64,000 bases of DNA from Flavobacteriaceae bacterium. Its GTDB lineage: Bacteria; Bacteroidota; Bacteroidia; Flavobacteriales; Flavobacteriaceae. The notes below the pieces were generated by a model that was not told the origin of the DNA, searched no databases, and saw nothing but the letters and a program-made list of their open reading frames with translations. The translations under genes were made by a program, and so were the position numbers. Shown one piece after another: positions 107 to 26,155 of the stretch (its first letter is position 1; every line of letters begins with the position of its first letter). The DNA lies in assembly GCA_947456815.1 (NCBI GenBank), contig CANGTL010000008.1:1-64000 (forward strand), written 5' to 3'.

Positions 107-207
107 GATAATTGTTTTAATTATGGTTTTAAATCAGAGCAACATTCGCGAGTTTCGCCAGAGGTTGGTCTAAGTGGGCGCAAATATAGATAAAAAAATC
201 AATAAAC

Positions 208-273
208 AAATTCCAAATTCCAAATAATTATTAATACTGATATTGGAATTTGGAATTTTTAAATTTGGAATTT
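208..273. repeat. AAATTCC heptamer units arranged as inverted arms (AAATTCC x2 ... GGAATTT x2, then one more GGAATTT)
   Basis: Direct reading: aaattccaaattcc at 208-221; ggaatttggaattt at 245-258; ggaattt at 267-273. Confidence 0.8.
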
Positions 274-986: not shown

Positions 987-1095
987 AGGAGCTATTCCCG
1001 CTATACGTTACAATCTTTTGTGATTGTCACCCTGAGCGCAGTCGAAGGGCTTTTCTGACACAAAAGGATTTCCACTGCTATCGGGGCTAGGGCAA
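987..1095. repeat. Dispersed imperfect palindromic element, copy A, with REP-like CCCTGAGCGCAGTCGAAGGG in its loop
   Basis: aggagctattcccgctatacg...atcttttgtg ... cacaaaaggat...ctgctatcggggctagggcaa; second copy at 25982-26061. Confidence 0.75.
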
Positions 1096-8592: not shown

Positions 8593-10461
8593 TTATTTTT
8601 CCAGTTTTATAAGGTCAAATTTGTTCACATAATTTTTCAACCAAATATGCATCATAAATAATGGCATAATATAAGAAACCATTCGATTGTCGCCTTTCTG
8701 CAGGTTGCTAATTAGTTTTTTGACATTGATATGTTCAAAATAAGGCATTTTAAAAAGTTCGCTATTTGAAAAAGATTCTAATTCATCTTTAAAGGCAGCG
8801 CTTTTGGTAATGTAATCTCCCCAAGGAGTGCTTAGTCCAACTTTTTTGAACGTCAAAATCTCTCGAGGAAGTCGTGATTGCATCGCTGTTTTTAGGATGT
8901 ATTTCCCTTTCTTACCAGTGAATAGCCATTTGTTGTCAAGTGATCCCAAACCAGCCAATAGTCTTTGGTCTAAAAAAGGTTCTCTGCATTCGATAGAAGC
9001 GCCCATCGTGCAACGGTCATTTCGATCTAGCAAAGAACATAAGTAAGTGTGCTGGTCGAAGTACAAAGCCTGACGTCGTAGATCATTTGGATATAATGAT
9101 TTGGCTTCCTCATATATTTTGTGGCGATATTCGTTCTTTGGCATATCCTTCATCCCAAACGTCTTGGCGATATCATTCGGGTAAATATTACAGCCATTGA
9201 AAATAACAAGGTCTTTGCAATCTTTAATTTGCGCGTAGCGGATTAACTTTTCAAAACGTGCTTTTTTGCTAAAAGCATCTAAGTTTCCTAAGACGGCGAT
9301 TGAATGCAAAAGCGTTGGGAATTGTAGTGCTTTATATCTAACATAACCACCCATCAATTCATCCGCGCCTTCGCCAGAAAGCAACACTTTTACTTTCGGT
9401 TTTGCCAATTGAGAAATCCCTAATAAGTGTGGTTCACTCAAATGCATTAATGGTTCATCTTGAAAATAGGTCGACGTAAGTAATTTTGAATACAACTCAT
9501 CGTCTTCCAATTGGATGCTGTTATACCCATAGTTATATTGTTCTGCTAATCTTTTCGCCAAATGCGATTCGTTGTGCTCTTGTTCTTTAAAAGCAATTGT
9601 AAACGCTTGAATGTCCTTGAACTGTTGGGAATGCAATGATGAAAGTACCGAGGATGAATCCAAACCAGCGCTCAAAAGCACGCCAACAGGAACGTCGCTG
9701 ACCATTCGAAGACGAATAGAATCGTCAAAAGTTTCTCTAAACCAATCGACAGGTTTTTTAATAGTTTCGTGGTTTTGGATTTCGTATTTCAAATCCCACC
9801 ATTTTTCTGACTCAATTTTACCACTTTCATGCAAAATAATTGCGTGTCCAGGAAGTACCTTTTTTACATTTTGGAAAAGCGTCTCCTCTCCAGCTACAAA
9901 ACGATTGAAAATATATTCCTCGATTCCGTCTTGTGACATTTTTAAGGGAACACCTGCTGTAAAGAGGGCTTTCTGCTCGGATGCAAAATAAAAAGTTTCA
10001 TTATAGAAAGAGTAGTAAAGCGGTTTTACACCCATTCTATCTCGTACGACGGTAAGTTTTTTCTCTACCATGTCCCAAATGGCAAAAGCAAACATTCCAT
10101 TAAGACGATTCAGCATCTTTAGACCATATAGTTGAAACAATTTCATTAGCACCTCAGTGTCTGAATGAGTTTTGATGTCAAATCCTTTTGATCTTAATTC
10201 TGGATAGAACTCTTTGAAGTTATAAATTTCACCATTGTAAACCATCGCGTATCTTCCGTCTTCAGACAGAAAAGGCTGATGCCCTGCAGCGCTGATATCG
10301 AGAATAGACAATCTTCGATGTCCAAGTCCAATATTCTTATTGACAAAAATACCTTTATCATCTGGCCCTCTGTGCTCCAAAGCATCTCGCATCCTTGTTA
10401 GCAAACGTTCGTCTACTTTTCGTTGTGATTGCAAATGCAAAATTCCGTTAATACCGCACAT
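8593..10461 (-). CDS. asnB: Asparagine synthase (glutamine-hydrolysing)
   Basis: MCGINGIL catalytic Cys; HRGPDDKG; VLLSAGLDSSSV; LLSGEGADELMGGY. Confidence 0.93.
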   Translation of the reverse strand: MCGINGILHLQSQRKVDERLLTRMRDALEHRGPDDKGIFVNKNIGLGHRRLSILDISAAGHQPFLSEDGRYAMVYNGEIYNFKEFYPELRSKGFDIKTHSDTEVLMKLFQLYGLKMLNRLNGMFAFAIWDMVEKKLTVVRDRMGVKPLYYSFYNETFYFASEQKALFTAGVPLKMSQDGIEEYIFNRFVAGEETLFQNVKKVLPGHAIILHESGKIESEKWWDLKYEIQNHETIKKPVDWFRETFDDSIRLRMVSDVPVGVLLSAGLDSSSVLSSLHSQQFKDIQAFTIAFKEQEHNESHLAKRLAEQYNYGYNSIQLEDDELYSKLLTSTYFQDEPLMHLSEPHLLGISQLAKPKVKVLLSGEGADELMGGYVRYKALQFPTLLHSIAVLGNLDAFSKKARFEKLIRYAQIKDCKDLVIFNGCNIYPNDIAKTFGMKDMPKNEYRHKIYEEAKSLYPNDLRRQALYFDQHTYLCSLLDRNDRCTMGASIECREPFLDQRLLAGLGSLDNKWLFTGKKGKYILKTAMQSRLPREILTFKKVGLSTPWGDYITKSAAFKDELESFSNSELFKMPYFEHINVKKLISNLQKGDNRMVSYIMPLFMMHIWLKNYVNKFDLIKLEK

Positions 10462-15092: not shown

Positions 15093-15122
15093 ATTTATTT
15101 TTAGGGGTCAAGATTCGGTTTT

Positions 15123-15157
15123 AAATCCAAAATCCTAAATCATAAATCCTAAATTAA
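15123..15157. repeat. Five degenerate 7-bp units (AAATCCA AAATCCT AAATCAT AAATCCT AAATTAA) ending 1 nt before the ribH start codon
   Basis: Direct reading at exact 7-nt spacing. Confidence 0.8.
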
Positions 15158-18478: not shown

Positions 18479-18491
18479 GTTGAGTAAAAAA

Positions 18492-18526
18492 AGAGAATAG
18501 AGAATAGAGAATAGAGACAAGAAACA
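18492..18526. repeat. Five 7-bp units (AGAGAAT x3, AGAGACA, AGAAACA)
   Basis: Direct reading: agagaatagagaatagagaatagagacaagaaaca. Confidence 0.85.
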
Positions 18527-18562
18527 AAAATTTGAAAGTTAAAAATAACATTAATTCCTTAA

Positions 18563-18642
18563 TCTAGAAATCTAACAGTCTCACAATCTAATAGTCCAAT
18601 AATCTAAAAATCTGACAATCTAAAAGTCTAACAATCCAAACA
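18563..18642. repeat. Ten degenerate 8-bp units (consensus TCTAAmAA) in exact register, ending 1 nt before the rhomboid start codon
   Basis: tctagaaa tctaacag tctcacaa tctaatag tccaataa tctaaaaa tctgacaa tctaaaag tctaacaa tccaaaca. Confidence 0.9.
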
Positions 18643-18643
18643 A

Positions 18644-19513
18644 ATGAACATACTAGACGATTTAAAAATGCAATATAAAATGGGAGGCTTTGAGCAAAAA
18701 GTCATCTATTGGAATTGTGGCGTGTTTTTACTTTCATTGATTTTTTTCTACCGCTTCAGATTGGGTGCTTTTGATTTTCCTACTTGGATTGCTTTGTCTT
18801 CGGATGCGACGAAAGTTTTATTCAAACCGTGGACTTTACTAAGCTATTTCTTTTTTCACGCTGGTTTTTTCCATTTGCTGTTTAATATGATTGTATTGAA
18901 TTTCGCAGGTAGAATTTTCTTGACCTTCTTCAATCAAAAGCAATTTCTTGGGTTGTATTTATTGAGCGGTATTTTTTCAGGTTTGATTTTTATCCTTTTT
19001 TATTCTGTTTTGATGGTCGGTCGAACTTCATCTATTGTTGGCGCTTCAGGCGCTATTATGGCAATTTTGGTGGCAACAGCGACTTATTCTCCGTTCATGA
19101 ATTTACGGCTCTTGTTAATTGGAAATGTCAAACTCTGGCAATTTACTTTCGTGATTTTGCTATTAGACTTGATTCAAATTTTTACGGAGAACACCGGTGG
19201 ACATGTCGCGCATTTGGCGGGTGCTTTTTTTGGTTTTATATACGTTAAATTGCTGATAAACGGAACTGATTTAAGCATGGGAGTTTCCTTTTTGCTAGAT
19301 AAGATTGCAACTTTTACGCGTCCTAAAAAAACGACTCCATTCAAGAAAGTTCATAGAAATTACACAGTCAAGTCAAATCAGTCTCCTTCCAAAATTGTTA
19401 CGAAAGACAAAACACAACAACAGATAGACGATATTTTAGATAAAATCAGTAAATCAGGTTATGACAGTTTGACCAAAGACGAAAAAGAGTTTTTGTTCAA
19501 AGCTGGAAAATAA
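18644..19513 (+). CDS. Second rhomboid family intramembrane serine protease
   Basis: FFFHAGFFHLLFNMIVLNFAG; VGASGAIMAIL; GGHVAHLAGAFFGFIYVKL. Confidence 0.92.
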   Translation: MNILDDLKMQYKMGGFEQKVIYWNCGVFLLSLIFFYRFRLGAFDFPTWIALSSDATKVLFKPWTLLSYFFFHAGFFHLLFNMIVLNFAGRIFLTFFNQKQFLGLYLLSGIFSGLIFILFYSVLMVGRTSSIVGASGAIMAILVATATYSPFMNLRLLLIGNVKLWQFTFVILLLDLIQIFTENTGGHVAHLAGAFFGFIYVKLLINGTDLSMGVSFLLDKIATFTRPKKTTPFKKVHRNYTVKSNQSPSKIVTKDKTQQQIDDILDKISKSGYDSLTKDEKEFLFKAGK

Positions 19514-21190: not shown

Positions 21191-21204
21191 TTGATGGAGA
21201 TACG

Positions 21205-21275
21205 TTTAACTGTTAATTCGTTTAACCGTTTATTCGCTTAATTGTTCGGAAACATTTTTCGATTAAACGATTAAA
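21205..21275. repeat. 8-bp units TTTAAyCG-like x5 (21205-21244) facing CGATTAAA x2 (21260-21275): inverted octamer arrays upstream of the WbqC gene
   Basis: tttaactg ttaattcg tttaaccg tttattcg cttaattg ... cgattaaa cgattaaa. Confidence 0.8.
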
Positions 21276-21303
21276 CAAATCCACGGTTATACAATGTAAC
21301 AAA

Positions 21304-25960: not shown

Positions 25961-26155
25961 TTCTTGGTTGTTGGTTTTTAGTAGCTATTCCGGCTATTCG
26001 CTCTATCTTTTGCTTCGTTACACTACTCAAAAGGATGCCGCTGTTATCCGGGCTAGGGCAATCGAGAAAAGAATCAAGAATCAAGAGAAACGACAAAATC
26101 TATGACGTAAACTTCTTGGCTCTTGTCTCTGTCTTCTATTTTTCTATCTTCTTGC
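25961..26155. repeat. Composite repeat region: heptamer units (25961-25981), palindromic element copy B (25982-26061), heptamers ATCAAGA x2 and relatives (26065-26092), inverse-orientation heptamers TCTTGGC/TCTTGTC etc. (26114-26155)
   Basis: Direct reading; copy B gtagctattccggctattcg...atcttttg...caaaaggatgccgctgttatccgggctagggcaa aligns with copy A at 987-1095. Confidence 0.75.

Follow-up and report, generated by a model that had tools for sequence, protein, structure and literature searches.

Short tandem arrays in bacterial spacers

Arrays of short tandem units have been described in the intergenic spacers of several bacterial groups. TAACTGA direct repeats are found in Beggiatoaceae, Cyanobacteria and some Bacteroidetes (MacGregor 2015; PMC4679880); they are mostly oriented towards start codons, and their largest class ends 1 nt before the start. 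In Gramella forsetii and A. sublithincola, other heptamer arrays are found in the same spacers as TAACTGA (PMC4679880). Heptamers of Xanthomonas (GGGAATC) and Nostoc (GGGGA(T/C)T) form intergenic arrays with inverted pairs and a strand rule (the G-rich strand is the non-coding strand upstream of genes), and the same spacer varies in length and sequence between close relatives (Rehm 2015; PMC4692102). As summarized in PMC4679880 and PMC4692102, 7-nt units are the most abundant class of long SSRs (LSSRs) in many genomes, and polymerase slippage was proposed for them (Mrazek 2007). The short tandemly repeated heptanucleotides of Calothrix, as they are cited in PMC4692102, comprise several heptamer words per genome.

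An array of ten octamers in front of a rhomboid gene shares much with these systems. It lies in the window analyzed here, a stretch of 64,000 nt from a Flavobacteriaceae bacterium (GCA_947456815.1, contig CANGTL010000008.1, positions 1 to 64,000) whose genus, going by its named relatives, is Flavobacterium. Like the TAACTGA repeats, it ends 1 nt before its start codon and belongs to a class that is oriented (29:2) at starts. Its unit, however, is the 8-nt TCTAANAR, which is degenerate and one of several words, of two lengths, that have inverted partners, whereas TAACTGA is one heptamer word present in 2–6 exact copies in the type genome (PMC4679880). The intergenic placement, strand rule, inverted pairs and variation between relatives of the Xanthomonas and Nostoc heptamers also recur here, but those heptamers are G-rich and quadruplex-capable, and the rhomboid word is A/T-rich without a G run (PMC4692102). 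Unlike the LSSRs as summarized in the two papers, the Flavobacterium arrays are degenerate, with 8-nt units about as common as 7-nt units; the Calothrix heptanucleotides, going by their description in PMC4692102, are set apart by different words and a different phylum.

By anatomy the Flavobacterium arrays belong to the known kind of intergenic, strand-ruled heptamer arrays. What sets them apart is their octamer word, their degeneracy, the use of several words with exactly two lengths, the lineage-dependent step and the forming of hairpins. We found no description of such 7/8-only, several-word, hairpin-forming arrays of Flavobacterium in the openly licensed papers that we searched. The single rhomboid array is minor, but following it up reveals a clean genome-wide signal, a class of spacer repeats with two periods (7 and 8 nt) and a small set of words, oriented by gene edges (above all at start codons) and turning over between species. 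This signal is relevant to the dominance of 7-nt units among long bacterial repeats, to the way in which spacers grow and turn over, and to the kinds of leader tolerated by bacteria without Shine-Dalgarno sites.

A degenerate octamer array upstream of a rhomboid gene

The array and the other features of the window are listed in Table 1. When the sequence was reread, the initial annotation proved exact as to the coordinates of the array, its ten distinct octamers, its lack of indels and the start codon: the array ends at 18642 and is followed by a single A and by the ATG at 18644. Identity at lag 8 is 0.694, compared with a mean of 0.32 in shuffles, and none of 100,000 dinucleotide shuffles matched this value (the highest was 0.583). 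The array is thus a head-to-tail series of constant-length units beyond chance, as in the intergenic 7–8-nt LSSR kind. Identity at lag 16 (0.73) and at lag 32 (0.77) exceeds that at lag 8, and Tandem Repeats Finder scores a 16-bp unit at 88 and an 8-bp unit at 62 (with zero indels at either period); the units therefore seem to have been duplicated as pairs or larger blocks.

The units had been thought to drift freely in sequence, which they do not: T1, C2, A5 and A7 are fixed or almost fixed, and the letters tolerated elsewhere (A/C/T at position 6, A/G at position 8 and T/C at position 3) are identical at unrelated loci. Nor are substitutions without indels odd for one array, as ∼15 substitutions from the consensus and no indels are unremarkable at an assumed indel:substitution ratio of ∼0.05–0.15. 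Register keeping is not peculiar to the rhomboid array either: among successive RTCYAA cores at most 20 nt apart in the spacers of this genome, 46 pairs (out of 50) step by 8 or 16 nt, and the spacing of the core is flat in coding DNA of the same genome.

Table 1. Features of the window around and beyond the rhomboid array
Feature	Position	Strand	Evidence or remark
Ten-unit degenerate octamer array	18563..18642	+	Consensus TCTAANAR, A/C-rich coding strand; sequence, autocorrelation, Tandem Repeats Finder
Upstream rhomboid gene, 249 aa	17729..18478	+	Pfam PF01694, E 1.3e-26
Downstream rhomboid gene, 289 aa, C-terminal DUF6576	18644..19513	+	Pfam PF01694, E 3.6e-22
165-nt spacer separating the two rhomboid genes	18479..18643	+	Octamer array is its last half
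Second array in the rhomboid spacer, heptamer AGAGAAT x 3.7	18492..18517	+	Repeat finding
Same-class heptamer array AAATCCT	15122..15154	+	Ends 4 nt short of ribH; L037 has a homologous array
Same-class hairpin, GTTTAACN octamer arm and inverted GATTAAAC arm	21203..21276	.	Between wbqC-like and lepB genes
Same-class ATTCCAA heptamer hairpin	193..271	.	Array/hairpin analysis
Flavo-1 RNA (RF01705)	990-1092	-	Rfam
Flavo-1 RNA (RF01705)	25983-26058	-	Rfam
L19-Flavobacteria ribosomal protein leader (RF03130)	140-167	-	Rfam, above gathering score

A scan for sigma70-type promoters predicted none within the spacer that separates the rhomboid genes, and no terminator-like site was predicted there. The spacer has no stable stem, its folding being no better than that of shuffles (the leader has a z of +1.38, worse than most shuffles); a hairpin at the array was dropped for this reason. 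An Rfam covariance-model scan of the window gave four matches, none of them near 18.5 kb, and a known Rfam family at the array was dropped as well. At the position of the AGAGAAT array, purine-rich 7-mers are also present in two related species (L036 and L039).

A genome-wide class of 7- and 8-nt arrays

We sampled the genome as 61 stretches (1.25 Mb including the window, less than half of the genome), in which genes were called by a simple, crude ORF rule; the spacer set holds 700 spacers of at least 30 nt (124 kb). Self-similar spacer segments number 56 at lag 7 and 42 at lag 8, with others at multiples of both, and each other lag from 2 to 13 has 0–3 segments (shuffles 0.4–2.8). Coding DNA scaled to equal length has 0–0.9 such segments at lags 2–11. 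The genome thus has many 7- and 8-nt arrays in its spacers and hardly any in its coding DNA, as is typical of the LSSR kind. The autocorrelation of all leaders at lag 8 against shuffles, a check proposed in the initial annotation, turned out positive: 14 leaders (out of 607) reach at least 0.6, with 0.0 expected. At lag 7 there are 10 such leaders, and at lags 5, 6, 9, 10 and 11 there are none.

A pattern search found the word of the rhomboid array at more than 10 separate places in its own genome (the reversed-pattern control of this search is uninformative, as the octamer unit is nearly mirror-symmetric). Profile clustering assigns most arrays to a few families, with octamers GATTAAAC, ACTCAGNA and TCT(A/T)ANAR, and heptamers ATTCCAA/AATTGAT, ACAACYT and AGTCAAG. 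The arrays are of mixed ages; for example, the TCTAACAA units at C68 are near-perfect, and the rhomboid array is degenerate. Over the whole genome, runs of three RTCYAA cores at steps of 8, 7 and 9 nt number 28, 1 and 0, respectively (overlapping runs counted separately). A stop-codon trap, in which 7- or 8-nt steps put TAA or TAG in every frame, was ruled out, since the ATTCCAA and ACAACTT words are free of stops on both strands.

We consider it probable that the rhomboid array is one of these genome-wide degenerate 7-/8-nt spacer arrays, subject to whole-unit turnover and carried as a tolerated leader; it looks like ordinary repeat turnover and not like a dedicated switch. Replication slippage or recombination would add or remove whole units, and the arrays would then decay by point substitution. 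With copy number changing only in whole units and with few stray indels, the register would survive. Coding DNA would lose its arrays because steps of 7 or 8 nt disrupt the reading frame.

Orientation at gene edges and inverted arms

Among arrays at most 20 nt from one start codon, the sense strand is A/C-rich in 29 cases and the reverse in two. Array-free spacers are A/C-rich in 41% and the reverse in 15% of cases, which differs from 29:2 (Fisher p = 0.014), and arrays adjoining stop codons split 19:12. Arrays are commoner in co-directional spacers (63 out of 456) than in divergent ones (11 out of 146; p = 0.04). The A/C-rich strand probably faces the gene because it makes an unstructured, AUG-free leader, and where an array abuts a start codon this strand would be kept as the sense strand for that reason. 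We infer such a filter from data on F. johnsoniae, in which upstream A and low structure aid initiation, with A favoured at -3, -6, -12 and -13 (PMC6847099). The earlier idea of an A-rich leader without a Shine-Dalgarno site is reasonable by these preferences, but in the rhomboid leader both -3 and -12 are C, and in most relatives -6 is T.

The array may instead be a cis-regulatory leader, with repeated sites for an RNA-binding protein (S1, cold-shock protein or similar) and a unit number that sets rhomboid translation. Its position flush with the start codon, the genome-wide orientation and the nearly fixed unit core with variable spacer letters agree with this, and the Beggiatoaceae TAACTGA repeats that end 1 nt before starts have been explained likewise (PMC4679880). 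It is unlikely, however, given that two sister species (L038 and L041) are wholly without the array, that the same class is also found behind stop codons and between convergent genes, that several unrelated words with two periods are not what a single binding protein would be expected to share, and that the key -3 position is C at the rhomboid gene.

Many arrays of the class are two-armed. There are 23 clean array hairpins, 14 of which are flush with both genes and 22 of which adjoin at least one stop codon. For example, the spacer between convergent genes at 9132–9210 of L135 (G000:C5) is a 25-bp perfect inverted repeat of TCTAACAA-type octamers. Slippage alone would give fewer cases of one word with inverted arms in a single spacer. 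The rhomboid array would then be what is left of an intergenic hairpin, with a T-rich arm after the stop and an A-rich arm before the start, that terminates transcription or couples the translation of its neighbors, as the two-armed sister arrays and the perfect stem between convergent genes would suggest. But the rhomboid array is one-armed, with no T-rich arm, stable fold or terminator-like site in its spacer; hairpin arms match their own partner best in just 12 cases (out of 23; ranked without Flavo-1-like elements, which dominate the cross-region scores); and the depletion of hairpins in divergent spacers reaches only p = 0.06, so that we find a lost partner quite improbable. Rather than a dedicated regulator, the rhomboid array is probably a leader that is tolerated, any side effect on initiation being mild; unit number may tune rhomboid expression.

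Inverted array arms also flank some Flavo-1-like elements on both sides.

Turnover across species

That the unit number is changeable, as the initial annotation held, is borne out between species: the orthologous rhomboid spacers of seven close species (one genome per species, compared at species level) have 10, 7, 5, ∼5, 2–3, 0 and 0 units. There are seven units in L039 (rhomboid gene 85% identical at the DNA level), five in L036 (80%), two to three in L037 (80%) and ∼5 units of a TCTTANAA variant in L040 (75%); in L038 and L041 the spacers are 15–16 nt long and have no units. The more distant species' loci that we compared lack the array. Copy number thus differs among relatives at the species level, as in the LSSR kind. 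In L036 and L039 the final five units can be aligned in register and differ by substitutions alone, and a register kept while unit number changes is as predicted by whole-unit gain and loss with point decay. The array had also been taken for a special device of the rhomboid gene, for which we find no support: a unique regulatory element is ruled out by the genome-wide class, by the word at other loci and by the orthologous spacers, two of which lack the array.

A second spacer, in front of a gene ('MILYNV') that we take to be DUF4286-like, was compared in 30 species. Its RTCYAA arrays, present in five species, keep steps of 8, in some cases with steps of 9 or 10 among them; GATTAAAC arms occur in one species and heptamer words in several, and in some species the spacer is a mere 9–18 nt long. 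Judging from these differing words or missing arrays, arrays are born and replaced repeatedly. In L196, L202, L211, L213, L219 and L220 the orthologous spacer carries array words that differ between species. Where the spacer of this gene has RTCYAA or GATTAAAC, it forms a hairpin that runs from just past the stop of the upstream gene as far as the start codon and could couple translation.

Among 199 Flavobacterium genomes, at least one run of three cores is found at step 8 in 100, at step 7 in 111 and at step 9 in 56, with a preference for one of the steps in individual genomes. Of 149 genomes from other genera of the family, 19 have an 8-step run, versus 100 out of 199 inside the genus. The johnsoniae-like loci are 60 copies of one genome region, and their counts are not independent. 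9-nt versions of the core, likewise degenerate (GTCTAAGTA and variants), are found in G176:C2, G211:C5 and G200:C34.

Pure local slippage from random seeds would predict many unrelated words, but few words recur, at scattered loci and across the genus, which implies some spread or word preference outside the turnover account; the dominance of periods 7 and 8 also lies outside it. One answer would be a dispersed repeat that transposition, conversion or templated addition carries from locus to locus and that does not arise by local slippage. Besides the few words at many loci, it would explain why one core has period 7, 8 or 9 depending on species, and perhaps why arrays are over-represented in Flavo-1-like spacers (17 out of 41 versus 29 out of 229, p = 4e-5, spacers of at least 150 nt in the genome sample). 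Yet the loci that we read show neither conserved flanks nor target duplications, the loci differ unit by unit, and the genome has both pristine and decayed arrays, as local expansion predicts; we regard such copying as very unlikely. Another answer, which we put forward tentatively and hold to be rather unlikely, is that Flavobacterium spacers draw on a small vocabulary of 7-, 8- and 9-nt words with a lineage-set period (RTCYAA at step 7 in one clade, 8 here and 9 elsewhere). A dedicated process would spread these words and maintain their register, and two-armed arrays would serve as hairpins between neighboring genes.

The Flavobacterium locus (protein 66–93% identical) is also found in metagenome bins named Sphingobacterium thalpophilum, Bifidobacterium breve and Lentimicrobium (records L039, CALPOS020000086.1; L041, CALPUN020000030.1; and L063, JAEMQE010000058.1), and these names look wrong.
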